A model generated the notes under the pieces. It was given only the letters and a program-made list of their open reading frames with translations, did not search any database and had not been told where the DNA came from. This document shows, piece after piece, positions 1-42,189 of a DNA stretch of 64,000 nt. Position 1 is the stretch's first letter. Each line of letters starts with the position of its first letter. Made by a program: the position numbers and the translations under genes. The DNA lies in the NCBI GenBank assembly GCA_029962745.1, contig CM057154.1:26500970-26564969 (forward strand), given 5' to 3'. Source of the stretch: Echinometra lucunter. Its lineage: Eukaryota; Echinodermata; Echinoidea; Camarodonta; Echinometridae.

Positions 1-883
1 ATAGCAATATCAAGAAAAGATTCCATGTTCAATTAATATATTCTGTACATATAGCACCATGATGGAATCTCATTACTGACACCCTTACTAAGACCAATGA
101 AGCAACATTTGAAGAATAATGGCAATGACGAACAGATTTCAGGAATCAAGAGATAAAGAGGGAGAGAGGAGTAAACGTGACATGTGTAGAAATGAAGGGA
201 AAGAAAGAACATCCACTAATCTAAGATTTGGCATAGAACATGTAGTCATGATTATAATGAGAGGATGAAACAGAAGTTAGTGCAGTAGTGCTTTATCTCC
301 TAAATCAGATCATGTGATAGGACAGTTTATCAAAGAGCAATGATCAGGCCCATGCAGATACCACATCTAATAAGAAATACCCTGATTTCAGTCAATAGCC
401 TCATAATATCACTTTAAAAAGTGAAGCAACACTGAAGAATACTGAGAGACAAAAAGACAGAGAAGTGAAGAGAGACAGAAAAAGAAAAAGAGGGAGAAGT
501 GAGAGCAAAGCAAAATTCAACAAAAGCTTTTCAAAAAGTGGAAAAATGTAATGAAGATGAAATAAATAATGAAATAAATGAATACATACTCTTTACATTA
601 TTAGGTGAGTGCATTCTTACAAAGCGTATAGCTGTCATGGTTGTCAAGATAATTCTATACACTTTGTTAAATGTAACGATAAATTGTGAAAAATTTTCTA
701 AAAAATGAATGAATACACTAAAGCTAGACGGTTTTAGAATCTAGATCCAAAACGTAGGTCCATCCACATTATTCCTTTGTTATTGAAGATGTTGTCAGCA
801 CAATCGGGGTAATGTATTAAAAAAATTGTGAATGATCATTTGGAATAAAACCTGTTCCCAGCAGAAGTGGTATATGGGTATAC

Positions 884-1060
884 CTTTGATTTTGATGCCT
901 CAGATGCCATCGTAGAGAAAAACTCATCACCCGGCTTTACATTGATCAGCTCCAATAACTGAAGATTTGGCATGGAGCAGAGACCTCTCGCGTAATGACA
1001 GGAGGCAGCGGGACCCAGTTCGATCGGCTCTTTATATGATTTATGCTTCAGCTCTTGAAT
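884..1060 (-). CDS. NLR gene A exon 7, LRR exon (array unit 1)
   Basis: A 177-bp phase 0/0 exon matching units 2 and 3 except for codons 7-11, which read KSYKE. It differs from unit 2 at about eight bases within that 15-bp block and nowhere else in the exon. It is the last complete LRR exon in the window; a further unit is cut by the left edge. Confidence 0.82.
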
Positions 1061-2090
1061 CTGGTGGTGTGACAGAACAGGCTGAATAAAGTAAATAGCA
1101 ATATCAAGAAAAGATTCCATGTTCAAATGAATATATTCTGTACATATAGCACCATGATGGAATCTTATTACTGACACCCTTACTAAGACCAATGAAGCAA
1201 CATTTGAAGAATAATGGCAATGAAGAACAGATTTCAGGAATCAAGAGATAAAGAGGGAGAGAGGAGTAAACTTGAGGTGTGTAGAAATGAAGGGAAAAAA
1301 AGAACATCCACTGATCTAAGATTTGGCATAGAACATATAGTCATGATTATAATGAGAGGATGAAACAGAAGTTAGTGCAGTAGTGCTTTATCTCCTAAAT
1401 CAGATCATGTGATAGGACAGTTTATCAAAGAGCAATGATCAGGCCCATGCAGAGCAGATACCTCATCTAATAAGAAATACCATGATGTGAGTAATAGCCT
1501 CATAATATCACTTTAAAAAGTGAAGCAACACTGAAGAATACTGAGAGACAAAAAGACAGAGAAGTGAAGAGAGACAGAAAAAGAAAAAGAGGGTGAAGTA
1601 AGAGCAAAGCAAAATTCAACAAAAGCTTTTCAAAAAGTGGAAAAATGTAATGAAGATGAAATAAATAATGAAATAAATGAATACATACTCTTTTGCTTAT
1701 CAGGTGAGTGCATTCTTGCAAAGCGTATAGCTGTCATGGTTGTCAAGATAATTCTATACACTTTGTTAAATGTAACGATAAATTGTGTTTCTCTTTGCAA
1801 AGTGAGTTAATTCTATAAATCACACTTTAAATTTGACCTTTGTCATGGAGATGGAGAGACGTCTATCGTCACTAAAAAAATATAAACTACGTGAGAATTT
1901 TTTTTTTTTAAATGAATGAACACACTAAAGCTAGACGGTTTTAGAATCTAGATCAAAAACGCAGGTCCATCCACATTATTCCTTTGTTAGTGAAGATGTT
2001 GTCAGCACGATCGGGATAATGTATTAAAAAAATTGTGAATTATCATTTGGAATAAAACCTGTTCAAAGCAGAAGTGGTATATGGGTATAC

Positions 2091-2267
2091 CTTTGATTTT
2101 GATGCCTCAGATGCCATCGTAGAGAAAAACTCATCACCCGGCTTTACATTGATCAGCTCCAATAACTGAAGATTTGGCATGGAGCAGAGACCTCTCGCGT
2201 AATGACAGGAGGCAGCGGGACCCAGTTCGATCGGATAAATTCCTGATTCATGCTTCAGCTCTTGAAT
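2091..2267 (-). CDS. NLR gene A exon 6, LRR exon (array unit 2)
   Basis: A 177-bp phase 0/0 exon with the same acceptor and donor as unit 3. The variable codons 7-11 read ESGIY and the remaining codons match unit 3 exactly. Because the exon is symmetric in phase, units can be gained, lost or skipped without a frameshift, which fits growth of the LRR region by tandem duplication. Confidence 0.82.
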
Positions 2268-3281
2268 CTGGTGGTGTGACAGAACAGGCTGAATAAAGTA
2301 AATAGCAATATCAAGAAAAGATTCCATGTTCAAATGAATATATTCTGTACATATAGCACCATGATGGAATCTCATTACTGACACCCTTACTAAGACCAAT
2401 GAAGCAACATTTGAAGAATAATGGCAATGAAGAACAGATTTCAGGAATCAAGAGATAAAGAGGGAGAGAGGAGTAAACTTGAGATGAGTAGAAATGAAGG
2501 GAAAAAAAGAACATCCACTGATCTAAGATTTGGCATATAACATGTAGTCATGATAATGAGAGGATGAAACAGAAGTTAGTGCAGTAGTGCTTTATCTCCT
2601 AAATCAGATCATGTGATAGGACAGTTTATCAAAGAGCAATGATCAGGCACAGATACCATATCTAATAAGAAATACCATGATTTCAGTAATAGCCTCATAA
2701 TATCACTTTAAAAAGTGAAGCAACACTGAAGAATACTGAGAGACAAAAAGACAGAGAAGTGAAGAGAGACAGAAAAAGAAAAAGAGGGTGAAGTAAGAGC
2801 AAAGCAAAATTCAACAAAAGTTTTTCAAAAAGTGGAAAAATGTAATGAAGATGAAATAATGAAATAAATGAATACATACTCTTTTCCTTATCAGGTGAGT
2901 GCATTCTTGCAAAGCGTATAGCTGTCATGGTTGTCAAGATAATTCTATACACTTTGTTAAATTTAACGATAAATTGTGTTTCTCTTTGCAAACTGAGTTA
3001 ATTCTATAAATCACACTTTAAATTTGACCTTTGTCATGGAGATGGAGAGACGTCTATCGTCACTAAAAAAATATAAACTACGTGAGAATTTTTTTTTTTA
3101 AATGAATGAACACACTAATGCTAGACGGTTTTAGAATCTAGATCCAAAACGTAGGTCCATCCACATTATTCCTTTGTTACTGAAGATGTTGTCAGCCCGA
3201 TCGGGGTAATGTATTAAAAAAAATTGTGAATTATCATTTGGAATAAAACCTGTTCCCAGCAGAAGTGGTATATGGGTATAC

Positions 3282-3458
3282 CTTTGATTTTGATGCCTCA
3301 GATGCCATCGTAGAGAAAAACTCATCACCCGGCTTTACATTGATCAGCTCCAATAACTGAAGATTTGGCATGGAGCAGAGACCTCTCGCGTAATGACAGG
3401 AGGCAGCGGGACCCAGTTCGATCGGATAAATTCTTGCTTCATGCTTCAGCTCTTGAAT
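3282..3458 (-). CDS. NLR gene A exon 5, LRR exon (array unit 3)
   Basis: A 177-bp phase 0/0 exon of 59 codons, with acceptor TGTCACACCACCAG and donor AAAG|GTATAC. It encodes two LRR-like segments: IQELKH plus a variable block, PIELGPAASCHYARGLCSMP, then LQLLELINV and an acidic tail. The variable block at codons 7-11 reads EARIY. Everything else is identical at DNA level to the exons at 2091-2267 and 884-1060. This is the rightmost, first-transcribed unit of the tandem array. Confidence 0.82.
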
Positions 3459-3929
3459 CTGGTGGTGTGACAGAACAGGTTGAATAAAGTTAATAGCAAT
3501 ATCAAGAAAAGATTCCATGTTCAAATGAATATATTCTGTACATATAGCACCAAGATGGAATCTCATTACTGACACCCTTACTAAGACCAATGAAGCAACA
3601 TTTGAAGAATAATGGCAATGACGAACAGATTTCAGGAATCAAGAGATAAAGAGGGAGAGAGGAGTAAACTTGAGATGTGTAGATATGAAGGGAAAGAAAG
3701 AACATCCACTGATCTAAGATTTGGCATAGGGCATATAATCATGATTATAATGAGTGGACGAAACAAAACCCAGATCGGTGCAGTATAGTGATTCAACTTT
3801 CAATATGTTGATAGGATGTGAAAGATTTGATCATATACGATTGTCAAATGGTGTCGTATGACATGTGTGATAGTGAATTCCTGAATCTCAGTATGATTTC
3901 ATCACTTAGACCTATCAACAATATATAGC

Positions 3930-4790
3930 AGTAAGTATAGCAGTAAAAGTATGGGTGTTGCAGTGATTATCAATAATGGGAGTAGCACTGATATTACAAA
4001 CGTATGCAGAGATGACAAAAGGAAGAATATTGATTGTAGATGTGGTGAAATGTGAACTTAAGTTTACTGTTATTAATGTATATGCCCTTAATATAGAAAA
4101 GATGCAACTTGATATTTATTTAGAATTAAAAAGACATCCTCAAAGATTATATTGACAGAGAGAACATTATAATTAAGGTGACTTTAACTGCATTCTGAAT
4201 TAGGATTTATACAAGAAAGGTGGAGTAGAAGGAATAAATAAAGAAAAATGCAGTAGATAAAATTTATAATTTAATTGATACTTTTGACCTACGTGATAAA
4301 TGGAGGTTCATCACCCTGACGAACACAGATTTACATGGAAAAAATCTGGTTACAGTCCGTTATTCCGAAGGTTCGTTATTCCAAAGGTTCGTTCATTCCG
4401 AAGGTTCGTTATTCCGAAGGTTCGTTAGTTCGAAGGTTCATTAGTCCGAAAACAAAATAAGTTTCGTCATTCCGAAGGTTCGTTAGTCCGAAAAAAAAAA
4501 TGTGTAAGGTTCGTTAGTTAGTTAATTATTTCCGGACTAACGAACCTTATTTCTTTTCCGGACTATCGAACCTTACTTTGAAAAAGCGTTTGATTCGTTA
4601 GAGTGGGATTTTCTATTTAAAACTATGAACCGTTTCCACTTTGGAACAAATTTTATTAATCATGTCGGAACTCTCTACACAAATATAAGCAGTTGCATAA
4701 TGAACAATGAAAAAACATCTTCTTATTTCCCGATTGGGAGTTGGGTTCGACAGGGAGATCCATTAAGCTCCCGTTTATTTTAAATTAGCT
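3930..4790 (+). pseudogene. Dead LINE ORF2 fragment (endonuclease and RT pieces)
   Basis: Plus-strand fragments match the L1/Tx1-type LINE layout. An endonuclease tail DLRDKWR...HRFTWKKSGY ends near 4352, with a frameshift. A reverse-transcriptase segment from 4578 reads FEKAFDSLEWDF and later WVRQGDPLSS. Stops and frameshifts show it is dead. The usual few hundred residues between these two parts are missing, and a short inverted-repeat element occupies the junction. Gene B lacks this stretch, so it is specific to copy A. Confidence 0.75.
4353..4576. mobile_element. Short element built of TTCGTTATTCCGAAGG units
   Basis: Several ~18-bp units related to GGTTCGTTATTCCGAA run in one orientation, followed by units in the opposite orientation (CCGGACTAACGAACCTT). 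The whole folds as one imperfect hairpin, as in a MITE. It sits exactly between the two LINE pieces. Confidence 0.6.
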
Positions 4791-4888: not shown

Positions 4889-5230
4889 AACATAATCCTT
4901 GTTCTAAAGGAAACCCATGATTAGGAAACCCTAATCCTTGTTCTAAAGGAAACCCATGATGAGGAGACCCTAATCCTTGTTCTGAAGGAAACCCAGGATC
5001 AAATCGAGGGTAGTGATGAGACAATAATCCTTGTTCTGAAGGAAACCCAGGATCAATGTGAGGGTAGTGATGAGACCCTAATCCTTGTTCTAAAGGAAAC
5101 CTAGGATCAATGTGAGGGTAGTGATGAGACCCTAATCCTTGTTCTAAAGGAAACCCAGGGTCAATGTGAGGGTAGTGGTGAGACCCTAATCCTTGTTCTG
5201 AAGGAAACCAATGGTCAATATGAGGGAAAT
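4889..5230. repeat. 54-bp minisatellite, ~7 units
   Basis: Units begin CCTAATCCTTGTTCT and recur at about 4930, 4969, 5023, 5077, 5131 and 5185. The later units have a 54-bp period; the first two are shortened to ~39 bp. There is no spacer diversity, so this is a minisatellite. It is absent from gene B. Confidence 0.88.
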
Positions 5231-9108: not shown

Positions 9109-9291
9109 CTTTGACAGTGACCCTGCAGCAAATATTCCTGTGTAGAAGTCGTCATCCAGGTGCATACTAAACTCAGTGATGGTCAACGATCGTAAGTCCT
9201 GCAGTGAACAGAGACCAATTGCTGCCAATGCGTGATCTTTGATGGGCTTGTCAACAGCCAGTTTTTCAGCAACTGAAGAACATTCTCTCTC
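9109..9291 (-). CDS. NLR gene A exon 4, first LRR exon
   Basis: A 183-bp exon with acceptor TTCTATAACAG and donor AAG|GTACCT, phase 0 at both ends, encoding 61 residues (636-696 of the model). The second half GLCSLQDLRSLTITEF aligns with GLCSMPNLQLLELINV of the downstream LRR exons, and both end in Lys-Ser-Lys or Leu-Ser-Lys at the donor. I therefore read it as a diverged member of the same two-LRR exon family. It is the part of the sensor that adjoins the NACHT tail. Its partner in gene B (29194-29376) carries Gln-His in place of Gln-Asp within the LRR. It would be missed by an ATG-based search. Confidence 0.82.
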
Positions 9292-10671
9292 CTGTTATAG
9301 AAATCAATGATACTGTTAGCATTTTGATCTGTTATTAAAAAAGAACAACAAACAAACGTATACGACTCAGTGAATAACTGTGGAACAATAAAAAGCTATG
9401 TTTCTTCTACTATGTTAAAAGGACTTTCATCTGAGAATTCTGTCTGACTGCCCTATTGTAAGCATCGTTTTGTGGAGGTAATTACAAAAACAGACAGACG
9501 CAGAAAAGTGGTATATTATAGTTAATTGGATGGTGAATAACTATAACTTCTAGTGCGATTACAATTAGTGTTTTTGTAGATCATCTGGTTGGTGAGGGTA
9601 TTTTTTCTGCGTTCCATTTTATTTTGTTAATTTCTTTTGTTTTTGTTTTTGTTTTGGTCTTGGACATAATACTTTTCATTTCCTCATCATGTTCATGGAC
9701 ATCTTGAAGCAAGTAGTACTTGAACGTCAAAGCAATAAGAGGAATTGTAATCGCAAAAAGGTCACGTACCGCTCACAATGCGTTTCGACTGTGACCTAAT
9801 TTGAAAATGAAACGCATTTTGCATTAAATATGAATTGTTAAAATAATCAGATTTTACCCAATGGAGGTTCGAATAATCATAGGAATATTCCAAACGAAAT
9901 GCTGGTTTATGCGAAGCATTTTAGTCTGAGTAAAACTAAATCGGGTTCAAATCTTAGCTAGGCAATCGCAAAACTATTATGATTATGATTTCAACGTCAC
10001 TTCGAGTCACAATTTGATCCTGCTTTTTCTCACAAGGAAGTTCTCAATAGCCCGAAATTATGACAATTCAGATTTTTTATCATTAGGATTTTACATGAAT
10101 GTTCTTATCAAGTGTTGTTAAAGTAACACATTTCTCCAAATTTCGTATTTTTAATAGCAGACCCATCGTTTAGCGAGTGTGGTTGGCTTAATAGCCCCCT
10201 CACACCTGACCGAATGTAGGTTGATGAAGGGTGGCGAATGGGAAAAATGCATTTTAAACATGTTCAAAATTTCCGCGCGAATTTGAATAATCACAGCTGT
10301 TAGTTCAGAAGGTGTACGAACCCAAACACGAAAGGTAAATATGATTTACTATCAGTTACCATTGAAAACGATTTTTTTAAAAATGCCTTTCGCCAGCCAT
10401 CACAAGGCATATTTCAGGCAATTCGGTTAGGTGCGATTGATGAAACCTCGCAGTTACAAAATGGTAGTCTGCATGCCATGGGTTCCTTACACGAGATAAT
10501 AAACAAATAGTACGATTCTTAGGGTTGAAGTATTTTCTCTCTCTCTCTCTCTCTCTCCAAATTTGGCATCGCATGCGCATTACATTGTCACGACACAATT
10601 GAAATTATAATTTGATAAATTTATGAACATAAGAAGTGCCATAATCTACTTTATTCAATTTAATACACTAC
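9292..10671. other. Intron 3 of gene A
   Basis: Noncoding DNA between the NACHT donor and the first LRR acceptor. It is collinear with 29377-31220 but lacks the ~440 bp found in gene B at about 30355-30790. It includes a (CT)n microsatellite at about 10534-10556 that is shared with gene B. Confidence 0.7.
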
Positions 10672-12203
10672 CTTTTCCCCTAATGTTTTCAGTGTGAAGA
10701 TATATCCAGCAAAGCGACTTTCGTAGGTCCAGAGTTCAAGATCAGTCTTAATCTTCAAAAGATTCCTAACAGGATCGATGGCTTCTCGATCATGACATTC
10801 ATAAGCAACCGCCATGATGAAATCCATGTCATCAACTTTTTCGCACAACACTTCCATCACCCTCTTTCCAACTTCTTCACGTGCTGCGGTAAAATACAAG
10901 ACATATCTGAATTCCTCGTAGTCTTGTATCAGCTTGTCTGTCAGCATTGTGTCAAAGTGTGGACGATCCTGGCAGAAGAGCGATTCAAGATAGGAACTTG
11001 CAGTGTATTCTTGAAACAGTTTGTGAGGGAAAGAGAATTCCTGGATGAAACGTTTCCGCTCCCTTTTTCTGATTTTTAGTGGTGCCAGCTTCTCTTCCTT
11101 GCTGAGAATTCCAACTTTACATGCAGTCCCTGCAGCATTCCTACATGATTTGAACGCTTCTTCGTCAAAGACCAGCTGTTTAGCCTGCAATCCATGAAAT
11201 GCTACACTTCCAATCTCTCTCATACTTTCATCAGCTTTTTCCATGTGCATGCTATAATCACTCTCATCATGTTTAGAAGAATAATGCTCTTGAAGTGAAA
11301 ACACAAGACAATTTAAGAGTTGTGAAAATGTTCTCATGGTCTGAATATTTTCCCTCCCAGATGGCTCTTTCCACATGTAACATAGCATGCAGCAAAATAT
11401 TGGCAAATGTGCCATGTGCTCAGATACAATACTATTTGTATTCATGAACGTAATGAGACTAGAAGCAGAGTCTACGTCATCTTTGAAATACTGCTCAATG
11501 TATGTCGACATGTTTTTCTTTGAGAAACCCTTAATCTTGACATATGTGTACTGCTCATTGACCTCCATGATACTCTTGATATGATCAGCTCCAAAAGGAC
11601 GGGAGGTGATGAGGATTGGGGTGTTAGTGAATCTCTCTCCTCTTATCATCGATACCACAGCGTCATCCCGGTTAGGTCGTTTGATGTCAATTTTTGCCTC
11701 GTCCAGTCCGTCCAATAAGATAAGGACCTTTCTTTGATTTTCCCTGATGTATCTATCCACTTGTTCACCTTCTGTGTCCATGTCATCTGGGAAGTGATTC
11801 ATGACAATATCCCCAAAGTATTTTTGTTCGTCAATCTCTCGAAACGATTCCAGGAAAAGGAGATCAATCTCTTGCAGAATTCTACCTTCAGTCCAATCCA
11901 GGGCTATCTTTGCAAGCAAGGTCGATTTTCCAACACCAGCTTCTCCAAGGAAAGCAAAGCGTGTTTCGAATCCTCTTGGTGTTTTTGTTTTGATCATCTT
12001 GAATAGACCATTGTAATCTATTTCCTCCTCCTTTTCTCCTCTCAATCCCAACATAAAGACGAGACTGACGTAGACGTGCTGTAACCATGTGCGTGATGCG
12101 GAGTCGACAGGTGATGTTTTGACCTCACTGAATTTCTTACGATATCTCGCCTTCAGTTGTTCACTTAGTTTCCGAATCTCATCTGGGAACCCCTGGGGAT
12201 CAG
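10672..12203 (-). CDS. NLR gene A exon 3, NACHT NTPase
   Basis: A single 1532-bp exon, 510 full codons, open throughout. The acceptor is a T-run followed by TTTGCCAG and the donor is GAAAAG|GTAGTG. It has no initiator of its own; it opens with DPQG, whose preceding Ala codon is split with the Death exon. Motifs: Walker A GEAGVGKST (model residues 211-219), Walker B KVLILLDGLDEA (283-294), sensor LITSRPF (322-328), and the helical-region signature FSFPHKLFQEY near residues 513-523. The product should bind and hydrolyse ATP and drive oligomerisation of the receptor. All key residues are present with no frameshift, so I infer a functional gene. It differs from the gene B exon at about 28 of 510 residues, including TLLAK here against TLFAK in B directly after the P-loop. 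Confidence 0.95.
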
Positions 12204-12339
12204 CTGGCAAAAAAAAGAAAGAATGCAAGAACAAAGAAAAGGGTAGAAGATTGAACAAATAAATATATGAGGTTGGATTTTTATTTAATTTTATTCACAA
12301 AATATCTTAAGGGAAACATATAAATAATAATATGAGTAA

Positions 12340-18740: not shown

Positions 18741-21130
18741 GTTCTTATCTCCGAGTTGGTTCTCGGATTCTCCAACCAATCTTGGAAATGTAAAGGATTT
18801 ATGGAAAAGGGGTCCTTTACTGACAAGACAGAATTATTCCAAAAACACATAAGGAAAGAGCCTAATAGCTATTTATTCCAGCTTCCGACTCAGTGTCACA
18901 GAACCTAACATGATGGGCATCCTTTGAATAAAGACTGAAAATAAAGGGGACAAACTAATATCCCCCAAAATAAATAAAACAAAATCAGTGAATAGTGATT
19001 TTCCCCTTTTTTCATTTGCATGGCCATGACGGCCGTCACAATTTCTTTTCTCATCGGTGCCTTGAAAGACGTACCTCCTCTGTATTTTCAACATTCATCA
19101 TACAATCTCATTCCTTTTTGGAACTTATCCCTTCTTATTCTTTCCTTCTTTTCCCCCTTCTCCTTCCCCCTTCTCCTTCCCCCTTCTCCTTACCCCTTCT
19201 CCTTCTCCCTTTTCATCTCTTATTCTCCTGTCTTCTTCTCTTGTTTAGCTCGTTCCCTTTTTCCCGGACTTCTAGTAGGGAGAGGGTGACCCATCCTGTA
19301 CTTTGCTCCTTACATGCCTTATTTTCACAATTATGAACCCTTCCTCGTTGTTACCAGTGAGGAAACGAACCTTCAGAATAACGAGAGTGAACCAAAGCAT
19401 GTCACGCACAATGAATTTGTCTGTTTGTTGTTGTGTTTACCTTGACGGTGTCGTTGTTGTTGTTGGATTAGTTTAATTGATCTAACAATTTAGTTTGTAG
19501 TTTTTTCCGGCATTACTCGGAATTACAGACCTCAGTGTATAGCGTATAACTTATGTGATGAACAAACTTATACAGAGGATTCACAACAGGTTATCAGCAC
19601 AAACCCAGAAACAGAGAAACGATGGAACTGTCTCTTCTTCTTCGTCAGAGGATTTTTCTGCCATTCATAATTTCTTATCTCATTGCCTGTGTGCTAATGA
19701 CGATGGACAATAGGATGCATATAGCGGCCGAGTCAAAGGTGGTGGACGATCTTTCAAAGTGGAGGGGGTAATAGCAAGAGGGACACTGATTTTAAAAGAA
19801 AGGGGCCCCTGACATAGGGTAAACTCAGAAAGAAAATATCAATTTGGGAGGTTGTATTCTATTCAGTACCAATTTAAGGAACATGTTCAACATTACATTA
19901 TTTGTATATCACATTAACTTAAATAATTAACCAATTTGCAGAATTGCAGTTGTATAATGGGCTGATTACATATTTGCAAGCTAGCAAAGACTTTGAGTAT
20001 TTCTTTCTTTTCCTGTCACAGGTCACGGGATTTGCATAAGTGACTTAGTGAGATTACAGCAGCTGCAAATTCATTTAGGGATTTTCCATATATCATTTTC
20101 ATAGTCATCCATTACCGCTGTCGTTTTCCTTATCACTGACCAAGCTATAAGAAGCTTCTCTGATTCCTTGGAACTTGGTATACTTTTATGAGGATTTCAG
20201 GGCACTTACAAGAATAGAAAAGGGTACTTAAAAGAAGGAAAAATGGCATCACAAGAACGTTAAGGGGGCTCTAAAAAAAAGTGAAAGGGGCGTGTCTAAA
20301 ATTCAAACGGGAATACTTACTTGATGTGAAAGGGGCATTTATCTGAGGAGAACTTATCAGAATTGCTATTCAAATTACATTAGAAACGAAAGGGGCGCTA
20401 AAAAGAGTTATTTATTTAATCCCTTTAGTCGGGCCCTCGAGATTTCCTGTGACAGAAGGAAAATGATAAAAGGGGGAAAGGGCACAAATCAGTAGTGAAA
20501 AGGGAACTACTATTAAAGTAAACAAATTATTGCTCGTGAAAAGGAGAAATGGGAAGTACTAGAAAGCAAAAAAAACCAAAAAATAAAAAAACAAAACAAA
20601 AAAGATAGCACTTATCAAACACTGCTATAATAGTAAAGAAGCACATCTATAAACTGAAGAGAGGCATTTATCAGAGATGAAAACAGGCACAAAATTTTAG
20701 AAAGAAAGTAACCACTGGTAATTATAAACTAAATCTTACTGATAATGTTGCCAATAGACTACTTTTTAGGGATAAGAAAACTCGTCACAGTATTTCACAA
20801 GAATAGCTAATGGTGTAGAGAGCATCATGTCATTTTTATCGTACAAGATCAAAGTGGATGAGAAAGTTTAAAAAGCAAAGAGCGATTTATCCTTAATTTT
20901 TTTTTTTCAACTCCTTAACCTTTAACCCCTGGCTTGCCTGGAATGCCAGCAAATATTTTCAGGGATGTTTCACATGTACTTCTCATGATGTAACGGGTAC
21001 ACTTAAAGACTGGTTCCCCATCAAGATGCTCTCTACATAGATTACATAAATTTCATTGCTGGAAAGAGAAGAAAAGATGATAGAGGAGTGTTGTAAGGGC
21101 AAGCATACTCAATTATCATCATGATCATAG
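18741..21130. repeat. Intron block present three times (1 in A, 2 in B)
   Basis: Sequence from AAAGAGTTCTTATCTCCGAG to the Death donor is found again at 36194-38618 and, from the gap on, at 39308-41539. It includes a pyrimidine-rich patch (19130-19230) and a purine-rich degenerate minisatellite of GAAAGGGGC units (20170-20700). Each copy ends at a Death exon, so block and exon were duplicated together. Confidence 0.85.
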
Positions 21131-21139
21131 GAGACTTAC

Positions 21140-21444
21140 CTGCACTGCTACTTGGGAGACATGTCTCAGCCACCTCTACTAAGCCCACCTTTTTTAGAGC
21201 GTCTCTGAGAATCGGTATTTGCTCAGACTGTTTCACTGTCTCCGCCCAGCTCTTGAGCATCTGCAAATTGCCGGTGCTAGTCTTGACACCCGTGGCCCAA
21301 TTCGTCGCTAAGGCCCGATCGATATCAGGATTCTTGAGCCCAAGTTTAAGGCCAAGCTTCCTTACATCCGAATCCATTGATATGGCTTCGGACACCTCGA
21401 TTATCATGTCATCGCATCTATGTCTCTTGTGGCATGGTTGGCTG
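21140..21444 (-). CDS. NLR gene A exon 2, Death domain
   Basis: The 305-bp exon has acceptor TTTCCAG and a consensus donor CAG|GTAAGT. It encodes residues 24-124 of the model. The Death fold is visible from about residue 36: MIIEVSEAI (helix 1), DVRKLGLKLGL, a central NLQMLKSWAE with the conserved Trp at about residue 89, and the closing IPILRDALKKVGLVEVAE. In this family the Death domain makes homotypic contacts with Death-domain adaptors. A basic Cys/His-containing stretch (PCHKRHRC) precedes the domain and is kept in gene B. The exon enters in phase 2 and leaves in phase 1, so its length is not a multiple of three and skipping it would break the frame. The acceptor is a CAGCAG tandem (NAGNAG), so one Ser may be optional. 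Confidence 0.88.
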
Positions 21445-22707
21445 CTGGAAATCAGAATTTAATGCAGGGAAAACGATTTACACCTAAATAATATACACAT
21501 ATTTTTTTTGTTTTTAGCCTTTGGACACAATACAATTAAAAAAAAAATCTTTCAAACATTTTTGTCCATTTGAATAGAAAATGTCCTTTCCTACATGGCA
21601 CGCTAGATGCAAACATTGAAAAATAATATTCCGTTTCAACAGAATATTGCAATTTTATCGTGCCTTGATCTTGTAACCTAGAGTCATGACACACTGACTA
21701 TGGGTTCGATAATTATATTTATTTTTTTGACTTTCAGGCAAAGATGAAACAGAAAACAAGAAAGAGATGCTACCAGTTAGTACTTATAGTATATCTAAGA
21801 TAGGCTATTCTGATTCTTATTTGTTCACAGAAATATATTGTCGGATTCAAATTGAATTCAGGATACACAGTTATTTGATTGTGATTTGGTCCCCCCCCCA
21901 AAAAAAAAACAAAACAAAAACAACAAACAAACTATACATGGAAAATGAACTGATAGGATCTTTACTGAAAGATGGTCACTAACGTAATTCAAAATCATTT
22001 TTACATCCTTCAAAATTACAGTGCAAACTGTGCTATAAAGTATAAACTTTTGACTCACTAAGAAACAGAACACCCATTTTTATTGATGTTTTATTACACC
22101 CATGGTGAACAGACTTCCCTAATGATTCGGGATCATTCCGTATTACAACCACTTGCATTTTGCAAAATGAAGATTAAAGACCGGGGACACATTTTTTTTT
22201 TTTTTTATTCCTTGAATGTATTTCCTTATCTCCAAAATCAAAGAGTGCATTATAGGGCCTAAGTATACACTTTAGCCTTCATGAGGTATAATAAGAGATG
22301 ATTATAACATTTTTCTAATCCACTCCCCCAGCAGCAGTTCAAACTTGATATCTTTCAGGCATGATGCCATTGTCTTGATTTCTTTATACATTAATAGCTG
22401 TTGCAGCATTCTGTAATATATGTCACGTGATACCTTATATCTTTGTGTTTATAGGTTAGGAAGTTTCATATATAATTATTAGGTATTTCATGTCAGGTTC
22501 AAGAATTAATATGGATGCAGTAGGAAAATTCAACTTCGCATGTTTGTCTGAAAATTATGAGATATCTAGTTATATGAAATAGCACCAAAAAAAAATCAAT
22601 AACATAGAGGGGAAAACTGTAAGATTCGGTGAGAGAATATTTTGTATTTTTCTCCATTTTCCAATTACCACTCATTCATAGGCGTGACAGGCGATATTAG
22701 ATGAGCG

Positions 22708-24781: not shown

Positions 24782-25281
24782 NNNNNNNNNNNNNNNNNNN
24801 NNNNNNNNNNNNNNNNNNNNNNNNNNNNNNNNNNNNNNNNNNNNNNNNNNNNNNNNNNNNNNNNNNNNNNNNNNNNNNNNNNNNNNNNNNNNNNNNNNNN
24901 NNNNNNNNNNNNNNNNNNNNNNNNNNNNNNNNNNNNNNNNNNNNNNNNNNNNNNNNNNNNNNNNNNNNNNNNNNNNNNNNNNNNNNNNNNNNNNNNNNNN
25001 NNNNNNNNNNNNNNNNNNNNNNNNNNNNNNNNNNNNNNNNNNNNNNNNNNNNNNNNNNNNNNNNNNNNNNNNNNNNNNNNNNNNNNNNNNNNNNNNNNNN
25101 NNNNNNNNNNNNNNNNNNNNNNNNNNNNNNNNNNNNNNNNNNNNNNNNNNNNNNNNNNNNNNNNNNNNNNNNNNNNNNNNNNNNNNNNNNNNNNNNNNNN
25201 NNNNNNNNNNNNNNNNNNNNNNNNNNNNNNNNNNNNNNNNNNNNNNNNNNNNNNNNNNNNNNNNNNNNNNNNNNNNNNNNN
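24782..25281. other. Assembly gap, 500 N
   Basis: Exactly 500 N, so a placeholder size. The right flank starts inside the LRR array unit of gene B, so further LRR exons of gene B are probably missing here. Confidence 0.98.
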
Positions 25282-25491: not shown

Positions 25492-25668
25492 CTTTGATTT
25501 TGATGCCTCAGATGCCATGGAAGAGAAGAACTCATCACCCGGCTTCACATTGATCAGCTCCAGTGACTGAAGATTTGGCATGGAGCAGAGACCTCTCGCG
25601 TAATGACAGGAGGTAGCGGGACCCAGTTCGAACAGATTATATCTTACTTCATGCTTCAGCTTTTGAAT
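25492..25668 (-). CDS. NLR gene B exon 5, LRR exon
   Basis: A 177-bp phase 0/0 exon, acceptor TGTCACACCACCAG, donor AAAG|GTATAC. It starts IQKLKHEVRYNLFELG, then CHYARGLCSMPNLQSLEL and a KPGDEFFSSMAS tail. It differs from the gene A units both in the variable block (EVRYN, continuing into LF) and at a few scattered residues. It sits in a single copy of the array unit that is cut by the gap on its downstream side. Confidence 0.82.
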
Positions 25669-30790: not shown

Positions 30791-31220
30791 TAAACATGTT
30801 CAACATTTCTGCGCGAATTTGAATAATCGCAGCTGTTAGTTCAGAAGGTGTACGAACCCAAACACGAAAGGTAAATATGATTTACTATCAGTTACCATTG
30901 AAAACGATTTTTAAAAAAATGCCTTTCGCCAGCCATCGCAAGGCATATTTCAGGCAATTTGGTTAGGTGTGATTGATGAAACCTCGCAGTTACAAATGGT
31001 AGTCTGCATGCCATGGGTTCCTTACACGAGATAATAAACAAATAGTACGATTCTTATCAGCATGTACAGGGTTGAAGTATTTTCTCTCTCTCTCTCTCTC
31101 TCTCTCCAAATTTGGCATCGCATGCGCATTACATTGTCATGACACAATTGAAATTATAATTTGATAAATTTATGAACATAAGAAGTGCCATAATCTACTT
31201 TATTCAATTTAATGCACTAC

Positions 31221-32752
31221 CTTTTCCCCTAATGTTTTCAGTGTGAAGATATATCCAGCAAAGCGACTTTCATCGGTCCAGAGTTCAAGATCAGTCTTAA
31301 TCTTCAAAAGATTCCTGGCAGGATCGATGGCTTCTCGATCATGACATTCATAAGCAACCGCCATGATGAAATCCATGTCATCAACTTTTTCACACAACAC
31401 TTCCATCACCCTCTTTCCAACTTCTTCACGTGCTGCGGTAAAATACAAGACATATCTGAATTCCTTGTAGTCTTGTATGAGCTTGTCTGTCAGCATTGTG
31501 TCAAAGTGTGGACGATCCTGGCAGAAGAGCGATTCAAGATAGGAACTTGCAGTGTATTCTTGAAACAGCTTGTGAGGGAAAGAGAATTCCTGGATGAAAC
31601 GTTTCCGCTCCCTTTTCCTGATTTTTAGTGGTGCCAGCTTCTCTTCCTTGCTGAGAATTCCAACTTCACATGCAGTCCCTGCAGCATTCCTACATGATTT
31701 GAACGCTTCTTCGTCAAAGACCAGCTGTTTAGCCTGCAATCCACGAAATGCTACACTTCCAATCTCTCTCATACTTTCATCAGCTTTTTCCATGTGCATG
31801 CTATAATCACTCCCATCTTGTTTAGAAGAATAATGCTCTTGAAGTGAAAACACAAGACAATTTAAGAGTTGTGAAAATGTTCTCATGGTCAGAATATTTT
31901 CCCTCCCAGATGGCTCTTTCCACATGTAACATAGCATGCAGCAAAATATTGGGAAATGTGCCATGTGCTTAGATACAATACGATTTGTATTCATGAACTT
32001 AATGAGACTAGAAGAAGAGTCTAAGTCATCTTTGAAATACTGCTCAATGTATGTTGACATGTTTTTCCTTGAAAAACCCTTAATCTTGACATACGTGTAC
32101 TGCTCATTGACCTCCATGATACTCTTGATCTGATCAGCTCCAAAAGGACGGGAGGTGATGAGGATTGGGGTGTTAGTGAATCTCTCTCCTCTTATCATCG
32201 ATACAACAGCGTCATCGCGGTTAGGTCGTTTGATATCAATTTTGGCCTCGTCCAGTCCGTCCAATAAGATGAGGACCTTTCTTTGATTTTCCCTGATGTA
32301 TTTATCCACTTGTTTACCTTCTGTGTCCATGTCATCTGGGAAGTGATTCATGACAATATCCCCAAAGTATTTTTGTTCTTCAATCTCTCGAAACGATTCC
32401 AGGAAAAGGAGATCAATCTCTTGCAGAATTCTACCCTCAGTCCAATCCAGGGCTATCTTGGCAAACAAGGTCGATTTTCCAACACCAGCTTCTCCAAGGA
32501 AAGCAAAGCGTGTTTCGAATCCTCTTGGTGTTTCTGTTTTGATCTTCTTGAATAGACCGTTGTAATCTATTTCCTCCTCCTTTTCTCCTCTCAATCCCAA
32601 CATTAAGACAAGACTGACGTAGATGTGCTGTAACCATGTGCGTGATGCGGGGTCGACAGGTGATGTATTGACTTCACTGAATTTCTTACGATATCTAGCC
32701 TTCAGTTGTTCTCGTAGTTTCCGAATCTCATCTGGCATCCCCTGGGGATCAG
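31221..32752 (-). CDS. NLR gene B exon 3, NACHT NTPase
   Basis: A 1532-bp open exon of the same length and phase as in gene A; acceptor TTTGCCAG, donor GAAAAG|GTAGTG. The apparent start at its edge is a TTG in the splice region, not an initiator. Walker A GEAGVGKST, Walker B KVLILLDGLDEA, sensor LITSRPF and the FSFPHKLFQEY signature are all present. About 28 of 510 residues differ from gene A, many of them charge changes (for example M to K, K to E, E to K, S to R), with no disabling change. Confidence 0.95.
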
Positions 32753-32879
32753 CTGGCAAAAAAGAACAAAGAACAAAGAAAAGGGTAGAAGATTGAACGA
32801 ATAGATATATGAGGTTGGATTTTTATTTCGTTTTATTCACAAAATATTTTAAGGGAAACATATAAATAATAATATGAAA

Positions 32880-38807: not shown

Positions 38808-39307
38808 NNNNNNNNNNNNNNNNNNNNNNNNNNNNNNNNNNNNNNNNNNNNNNNNNNNNNNNNNNNNNNNNNNNNNNNNNNNNNNNNNNNNNNNNNNNNN
38901 NNNNNNNNNNNNNNNNNNNNNNNNNNNNNNNNNNNNNNNNNNNNNNNNNNNNNNNNNNNNNNNNNNNNNNNNNNNNNNNNNNNNNNNNNNNNNNNNNNNN
39001 NNNNNNNNNNNNNNNNNNNNNNNNNNNNNNNNNNNNNNNNNNNNNNNNNNNNNNNNNNNNNNNNNNNNNNNNNNNNNNNNNNNNNNNNNNNNNNNNNNNN
39101 NNNNNNNNNNNNNNNNNNNNNNNNNNNNNNNNNNNNNNNNNNNNNNNNNNNNNNNNNNNNNNNNNNNNNNNNNNNNNNNNNNNNNNNNNNNNNNNNNNNN
39201 NNNNNNNNNNNNNNNNNNNNNNNNNNNNNNNNNNNNNNNNNNNNNNNNNNNNNNNNNNNNNNNNNNNNNNNNNNNNNNNNNNNNNNNNNNNNNNNNNNNN
39301 NNNNNNN
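38808..39307. other. Assembly gap, 500 N
   Basis: A placeholder of exactly 500 N between two copies of the Death-exon block. The left flank ends inside a Death exon and the right flank begins mid-block, at the sequence matching 36479. Confidence 0.98.
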
Positions 39308-41245: not shown

Positions 41246-41539
41246 AGATCTCATCAGTGGATGAGAAAGTTTAAAAAGCAAAGAGTGATGTTATCCTTAA
41301 TCTTTTTCAACTCCTTAACTTTTAACCCCTGGCTTGCCTGGAATGCCAGCAAATATTTTTAGGGATGTTTCACATGTACTTCTCATGATGTAACGGGTAC
41401 ACTTAAAGACTGGTTCCCCATCAAGATGCTCTCTATATAGATTACATAAATTTCATTGCTGGAAAGAGAAGAAAAGATGATAGAGGAGTGTTGTAAGGGC
41501 AAGCATACTCAATTATCATCATGATCATAGGAGACTTAC

Positions 41540-41844
41540 CTGCACTGCTACTTGGGAGACATGTCTCAGCCACCTTTACTAAGCCCACCTTTTTTAGAGC
41601 ATCTCTGAGAAGCGGTATTTGCTCAGACTGTTTCACTGTCTCCGCCCAGCTCTGAAGCATCTTCAAATTGCCATTGCTGGTCTTCACACCTGTGAGCAAG
41701 TTTGTTGCTAATGCCCGATTGATATCAGGTTCCTTGACACCAAGTTTATGACCCAGCTTCCTTACATCCGAATCCTCTGAAATGGCTTCAGACACCTCAA
41801 TGATCATGTCATCGCATCTATGTCGCTTGTGGCATTTTTGGCTG
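41540..41844 (-). CDS. NLR gene B Death exon, distal copy
   Basis: A 305-bp exon with acceptor TTTCTAGCAG and donor CAG|GTAAGT, same phases as gene A exon 2. The Death core is intact, with the conserved Trp in MLQSWAE. It is the most diverged of the three Death exons here (for example NLLTGVKTSNGNLKMLQSW where gene A has NWATGVKTSTGNLQMLKSW, and IPLLRD for IPILRD). Coming first after exon 1 in transcription order, it would be used by default if both copies are real. Confidence 0.85.
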
Positions 41845-42189
41845 CTAGAAATCAAAATTTTAAAAATGCAGGGAAAACGATTTAAACCTAAATAATTCAT
41901 ATACACATATTTTTTTTTAGACTTTGGACATAATACAATACAAAAAAAAATCTTTCAAACATTTTCGTCCAATCAAATACAATACGTCCTTTCCTACATG
42001 GCATGCTAGATGCAAACACTAAAAAAATAATAGTGGTCCGTTTCAATAAAATATTTCACTTTTCATAATTCCATCGTGCCTCTTGTAGCATAGAGACATG
42101 ACACACTGAATATGGGTTTGATATTTATTTGATTTGACTTTCAGGCAAAGATGAAACAGAAAACAAGAAAGAGATGCTACCGCTAGTAC

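Follow-up and report, generated by a model that had tools for sequence, protein, structure and literature searches.

Evidence for diversifying selection and exchange of a hypervariable codon block among tandem LRR exons of a sea urchin NLR gene family

Sea urchins possess very large families of NLR genes, and the role of these families in specific recognition is unsettled. Here, we describe tandem LRR exons in the sea urchin Echinometra lucunter in which a block at codons 7–12 is under diversifying selection, and in which the residue strings at this block (hereafter words, the residues between residue 6 and the next [E/K]L) are reshuffled among units. The reading we hold to be likely is that of an exon-modular NLR that combines diversifying selection on codons 7–12 with reassortment of words by recombination. 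Each exon would be a phase-0 module of two ribonuclease inhibitor-type LRRs in the sensor end of a Death-NACHT-LRR receptor, with codons 7–12 forming the end of the concave strand of the first LRR and a strand-helix loop of variable length, and this block would contact ligand. Diversifying selection favors amino acid change there, and the exon outside codons 7–12 is mildly constrained, with silent sites that behave like introns. Units are duplicated, and words reassorted with other parts of the exon, by gene conversion or unequal crossover between arrays. The array exons would be spliced in series into one solenoid.

The window, the whole stretch of 64,000 nucleotides that was analyzed, corresponds to C4:26500970–26564969 of the 743-Mb E. 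lucunter assembly and holds parts of two paralogous genes, A and B, that are alike in exon order:

1–3768, minus strand: tandem array of gene A, unit of about 1.2 kb, running past the window edge
884–1060, minus strand: array exon of unit 1, 59 codons, two predicted LRRs, word KSYKEPI
1028–1042, minus strand: codons 7–11 of unit 1, KSYKE, hypervariable
2091–2267, minus strand: array exon of unit 2, word ESGIYPI
2235–2249, minus strand: codons 7–11 of unit 2, ESGIY, hypervariable
3282–3458, minus strand: array exon of unit 3, word EARIYPI, leading the array in gene order
3426–3440, minus strand: codons 7–11 of unit 3, EARIY, hypervariable
9109–9294, minus strand: first LRR exon of gene A, outside the array, 5' end approximate
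10660–12294, minus strand: open frame holding the NACHT exon of gene A, with the exon ends inside the frame
21042–21458, minus strand: open frame holding the Death-domain exon of gene A (Pfam 22.3 against a cut-off of 22.6 bits)
25492–25668, minus strand: gene B member of this exon family, word EVRYNLF
25636–25650, minus strand: codons 7–11 of the gene B exon, EVRYN, hypervariable
31209–32822, minus strand: open frame holding the NACHT exon of gene B

Three further gene A array exons lie outside the window (C4:26498095, 26499309, and 26500518), making six units in total, and the gene B array enters an N gap at 24782–25281. Upstream of the gene A array, the Death exon, NACHT exon, and first LRR exon follow one another on the same strand, and the NACHT domain (PF05729) scored 93.6 bits in gene A and 91.0 bits in gene B against a cut-off of 26.7. 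Splice sites, strand, and exon order are consistent with LRR exons joined to NACHT, and this predicted structure assigns the window exons to an echinoid Death-NACHT-LRR (NLR) gene. A Pfam search of single array exons returned no LRR match (0 families); their identity as LRRs comes from relatives that fold as ribonuclease inhibitor-type LRRs and align to the exons.

The original prediction described the exons at 884, 2091, and 3282 as near-identical apart from codons 7–11, read as KSYKE, ESGIY, and EARIY, and we found exactly this. Each exon is 177 bp long, is flanked by an AG acceptor and a GT donor, and is open in frame 0 only. No pair of units differs at any of the other 162 exon bases, and within the 15-bp block units 1 and 2 differ at 8 bases, in line with the earlier figure of about eight, units 1 and 3 at 9, and units 2 and 3 at 2. 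The nine variable sites of the three exons all lie in the block, for which random placement in one 15-bp span gives a chance bound of about 2e-9, a bound that takes sites as independent, an assumption that block exchange would violate. Every differing codon changes an amino acid, and the aligned intron bases of units 1/2, 1/3, and 2/3 differ by 2.3%, 4.1%, and 4.7%. The gene B exon likewise departs from the three window exons at the block (4, 6, or 10 of 15 bases), as had been claimed, although the contrast with the rest of the exon is weaker there, with 10 of the 162 other bases differing too.

Unit 1 is not alone in carrying KSYKE. In gene order the gene A array reads EARIY, ESGIY, KSYKE, ESGIY, KSYKE, KSYKE (KSYKE three times, ESGIY twice, EARIY once), and KSYKE and other words were later found in further units of the genome. 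Elsewhere in the window, every match to a block carries at least 2 mismatches. An indel origin of KSYKE was rejected, as this block, when aligned with gaps to each of the other three, scored no better than shuffles (385, 729, and 688 of 1000 reached the scores); an inverted alignment of the KSYKE block scored −5 (without a shuffle comparison).

Querying the assembly with the exon gave at least 136 matches (E ≤ 0.001) among the 150 of 407 candidates that were scored; roughly 60 are strong, and nearly all of these lie on C4 24.99–26.59 Mb or C2212. From 20 stretches and the window we collected 64 tblastn matches, which came to 59 exons after removal of three without a full spliceable exon and two overlaps; outside this set are the C1099 and C1155 exons and a number of weaker matches. 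All 59 exons are spliceable with open frames and none contains a stop, and their lengths (165–180 bp) are all multiples of 3, in phase 0. Genes A and B each have a NACHT exon upstream, on the same strand, and so do six or more further arrays or lone exons (NACHT at C4:26594525, 25694232, 25733075, and 24996785, C418:66640, and C2212:19729). Of 219 NACHT candidates 99 were scored, all above the cut-off and one with an internal stop, and among these 99 there was no nearby upstream NACHT for the plus-strand arrays at C4:25.44 and 25.62–25.67 Mb, so some arrays may be orphan.

With one exon dropped for a body deletion, the remaining 58 carry 42 different words. The words span 4 to 8 codons (7 in 41 exons, 4 in 8, 8 in 6, 6 in 2, and 5 in 1), and some recur: EASRPPI in five units, KSYKEPI in three, and EARIYPI in two that lie 0.8 Mb apart. 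Nucleotide diversity among the 37 distinct 177-bp exons is 0.415 at codons 7–11, 0.109 at codons 37–43, and 0.067 in the remainder (which excludes codons 7–13 and 37–43), and codon 40 has the highest amino acid entropy outside the block. Also 0.8 Mb away, at C4:25715906–25717327, are two units with the gene B word EVRYNLF, one of which has exactly the translated exon of gene B.

The block is not a feature of every NLR array in this genome, as no comparable hypervariable block was present in the seven exons (six of 168 bp, one of 174 bp) of an array on C1661, where 12 of 56 positions vary, including positions 5, 7, 8, 34, and 36. The block would therefore be a property of the array-exon subfamily, or need time to arise. 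Three of the seven C1661 units (C1661:300–9900) are identical, and this array, which belongs to another NLR subfamily, may be very young.

We compared rates of change in 17 disjoint closest pairs of 177-bp exons, each exon counted once, drawn from the 55 of 59 exons with usable flanks and with flank divergences of 0.7–8.3%. A multiple alignment of the flanks misaligned some pairs (the downstream flanks of C4:26499309/26501853 differed by 0.259, as against 0.051 when aligned pairwise), and pairwise alignments were therefore used, in which errors at indels would inflate the intron rate. Across the 17 pairs, codons 7–12 hold 72.7 replacement and 4.3 silent differences (pN 0.300, pS 0.068), compared with pN 0.031 and pS 0.052 in the exon outside the block and 459/9762 (0.047) in the flanking introns. 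Replacement change in the block exceeds the intron rate (P = 3e-36) and silent change does not (P = 0.55), and the ratio of replacement to silent change differs between the block and the rest of the exon (P = 3e-6), P values that overstate the evidence, as words exchanged whole are non-independent mutations. Among 54 six-codon windows pN peaks at codons 7–12, the best window starting after codon 18 reaching 0.071, and words differ in 13 of the 17 pairs. As replacement change alone is raised, codons 7–12 are under diversifying selection and are not a mutation hotspot.

In the rest of the exon, silent sites evolve like introns (P = 0.63) and replacement change falls below introns (P = 8e-4), indicating mild constraint. 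The original prediction had the exon bodies homogenized, and a special homogenization of them was not supported: with body silent divergence equal to that of introns, the identity of the three bodies in the window is a local and recent state. Genome-wide, silent diversity among array exons is about 10-fold lower in the block than in the rest of the exon, for which our guess is recent sweeps of words.

Words also move between units. In gene A, the split between KSYKE and the other words occurs in all four combinations with the variants at codon 28 base 2, codon 35 base 2, and codon 41 base 3, and given the eight base differences between KSYKE and ESGIY, the straightforward explanation is that the exon has undergone internal recombination or conversion. 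The same word is found in units whose flanks are up to 10% apart. Nine of 1485 pairs are mosaic, with one 300-bp flank ≤1.5% and the other ≥4% divergent (0/300 versus 31/296, for example), and four of these survive correction for 1485 tests; one mosaic pair has an identical exon, a downstream flank differing at 2/300 and an upstream flank at 25/295, and another is alike upstream (2/300) but differs in the exon and downstream (21/271). Distance correlations from segment to segment are low (−0.18 to 0.28 over 659/741 pairs) and fit what frequent exchange would give, although short segments are noisy and these values are given little weight. Recurring words, the four combinations, and mosaic units together indicate that crossover or gene conversion reshuffles words among units, as had been suggested for conversion.

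Among named relatives of the array exons, gene models of Strongylocentrotus purpuratus come closest (≤62% identity). We obtained 61 module matches, nearly all from S. purpuratus and one from P0003, of which 59 (54 distinct) pass a frame filter, although register is lost in the second half of a few. In the S. purpuratus modules variation is highest at positions 7, 8, 36, 35, 33, and 5, the xLxLxx positions of both LRRs, and the gene model P0001 alone, with 16 modules of which 13 are back to back, gave the ranking 7, 33, 36, 5, 3, 35, 8. A Diadema setosum protein was similar, with positions 36, 5, 7, and 37 ranking highest in 12 of its 13 modules. An AlphaFold2 model of S. purpuratus P0004 (mean pLDDT 84.8, 13-sequence alignment) predicts strands at module positions 3–10 and 31–38 and helices at 13–25 and 41–53. 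Its top PDB matches were NLRP proteins and ribonuclease inhibitor, and none of the ten best exceeded a TM-score of 0.55 (normalized to the query length).

Mapped by eye onto this model of a relative, window codons 7–8 correspond to module positions 7–8, codon 40 to position 36, and codons 9–12 to a four-residue insertion between strand and helix. This puts the block at the predicted concave strand end and strand-helix loop of the first LRR, close to where it had been expected; Echinometra variation would be concentrated at the strand end and in the loop, and positions 5 and 7 would vary less. A comparison of 50 of the 59 modules led us to reject concerted evolution within each S. purpuratus protein, as body identity was 0.813 for modules of one protein and 0.805 for modules of different proteins, a difference attained by 437 of 2000 shuffles. 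Hypervariable sites are slightly more alike within proteins (0.204 versus 0.139; 6 of 2000), the opposite of homogenized bodies.

The same exons could be used differently, as mutually exclusive exons of which one enters each transcript in the manner of Dscam, the words being alternatives. Tandem in-frame exons with clean splice sites would suit such a scheme, and the available part of one report describes alternative splicing of NLRP3 LRR exons (PMC6642158), but predicted S. purpuratus gene models such as P0001 string modules in series and the exon lengths, all multiples of 3, make series inclusion possible. We regard mutually exclusive use as unlikely.

Another account would be neutral block exchange, in which gene conversion moves a few old, divergent words whose difference is unselected. 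It would account for words that repeat across arrays and bodies, for mosaic units, and for the sharing of the unit 1 word with two other gene A units, but it creates neither 42 words in 58 exons nor an excess of replacement over silent change, and it leaves unexplained why strand positions are the variable ones in two further echinoids; we give it little credence.

Focused hypermutation (AID-like, error-prone, or templated) would strike the block whatever its coding effect, and had been offered as an alternative to selection. The high local nucleotide diversity at codons 7–11 could be read this way, as could the codon-sized length changes and the third positions of codons 9–11, which vary alongside amino acid change. 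Against it, four-fold sites are invariant at codons 8 (34/34) and 12 (36/36), block pS equals that of introns, and the same residue is written with another codon in just 8 of 1141 block comparisons versus 2039 of 27359 others (36 distinct exons, different-word pairs), making this process improbable. An assembly artefact of collapsed or chimeric repeats is hardly credible: the tandem repeats are near-identical, the window has three 500-N gaps, and short-read assemblies of comparable Podospora repeats are unreliable according to the available part of one report (PMC12222747), but words repeat in several arrays with different introns, all 42 occur in open, spliceable exons, and proteins of other species vary at matching positions.

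Diversifying selection with recombination of words remains the reading we favor; counted against it are the C1661 array without a block, the plus-strand arrays without a nearby NACHT, and a structural model taken from a relative.

Brown algal LRR-ROCO genes were reportedly the subject of earlier work by Zambounis in 2012, cited by Teng 2024. In the parts of the sources available to us, these genes are the closest likeness: they are candidate immune receptors with tandem LRR exons in one phase and exon shuffling, and four positively selected sites per LRR lie on the concave side (Teng 2024, PMC11378527). The Echinometra exons share the one-phase tandem arrangement, shuffling, and diversified concave residues, but belong to an animal Death/NACHT gene rather than a ROC-COR GTPase, encode two LRRs per 165–180-bp phase-0 exon rather than one per 72-bp phase-2 exon, and vary most at the strand end and a loop that changes length.

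The HNWD NLRs het-d and het-e of Podospora carry near-identical sensor repeats exchanged within and among genes, with four codons diversified on the repeat surface (PMC1805685, PMC12222747, as far as their available text goes). Both systems are NACHT receptors with exchanged repeats and few diversified surface codons, the surface position in Echinometra being that of the model. HNWD repeats are WD40 repeats in one coding region, >80% identical within a gene, whereas the Echinometra modules are LRRs, on separate exons in 1.2-kb units. The Echinometra units exchange, and their body silent divergence equals that of introns, with no extra homogenization. Fungal NLRs are reported, in the text available, to be without LRRs (PMC4986451).

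Among animals, mammalian NLRP genes offer exon-modular, frame-preserving LRRs and a matching fold, NLRP3 having 171-bp LRR exons of ribonuclease inhibitor-like type; the accessible part of that report describes no hypervariable block or exon-array expansion (PMC6642158). Zebrafish NLR-B30.2 genes are likewise a large family with variable LRR exon number and gene conversion, but their positive selection is in B30.2, with LRRs judged not particularly variable in the available part of the report (PMC4852459), unlike the signature within LRRs in Echinometra. The array is an animal NLR with exon-modular LRRs and a member of neither the HNWD nor the LRR-ROCO class.

Lamprey variable lymphocyte receptors (VLRs) likewise have variable concave residues on a conserved LRR scaffold, and are assembled somatically and displayed or secreted, whereas the Echinometra receptors are NACHT proteins, known here from one genome assembly. 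One could imagine an anticipatory, VLR-like combinatorial repertoire in which dozens of words sit on LRR exons that can be swapped, recombination keeps rebuilding the arrays by breaking them at the edges of exons, and immune cells, through somatic recombination or alternative exon use, make solenoids particular to each animal or cell, an extension that we think doubtful.

These results suggest that selection diversifies, and recombination reshuffles, what the receptors can recognize, in an animal NLR with a strong selection signature in its LRRs at a few defined codons. Exchangeable exon words are a DNA substrate for making new specificities, in parallel with independent solutions in fungi and brown algae, and the block names residues and units to examine for binding, splicing, and individual variation. 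A literature search, from which subscription papers mostly fell outside, found no report of such a block in sea urchin NLRs, which does not prove absence.

A search of a phage collection gave no match, and the end of S. purpuratus P0004, used to seek a C-terminal exon, matched nothing in the extracted stretches. Beside the array, 4580–4790 of the window (plus strand) resembles by eye what we take to be a broken piece of a non-LTR reverse transcriptase, and two minisatellites adjoin the array at 4358–4450 and 4893–5226, with periods of 16 bp and 54 bp. Near gene B, at 38808–39307 and 41442–41954 (minus strand), a 500-N gap interrupts one Death-domain frame, and another such frame is located about 3 kb from it. 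Each gene A array intron contains an apparent LRR-exon relic (202–240, 1300–1338, 2507–2542, and 3695–3733, minus strand), roughly SMPNLRSVDVLS, as if two LRR exons had made up the ancestral unit.
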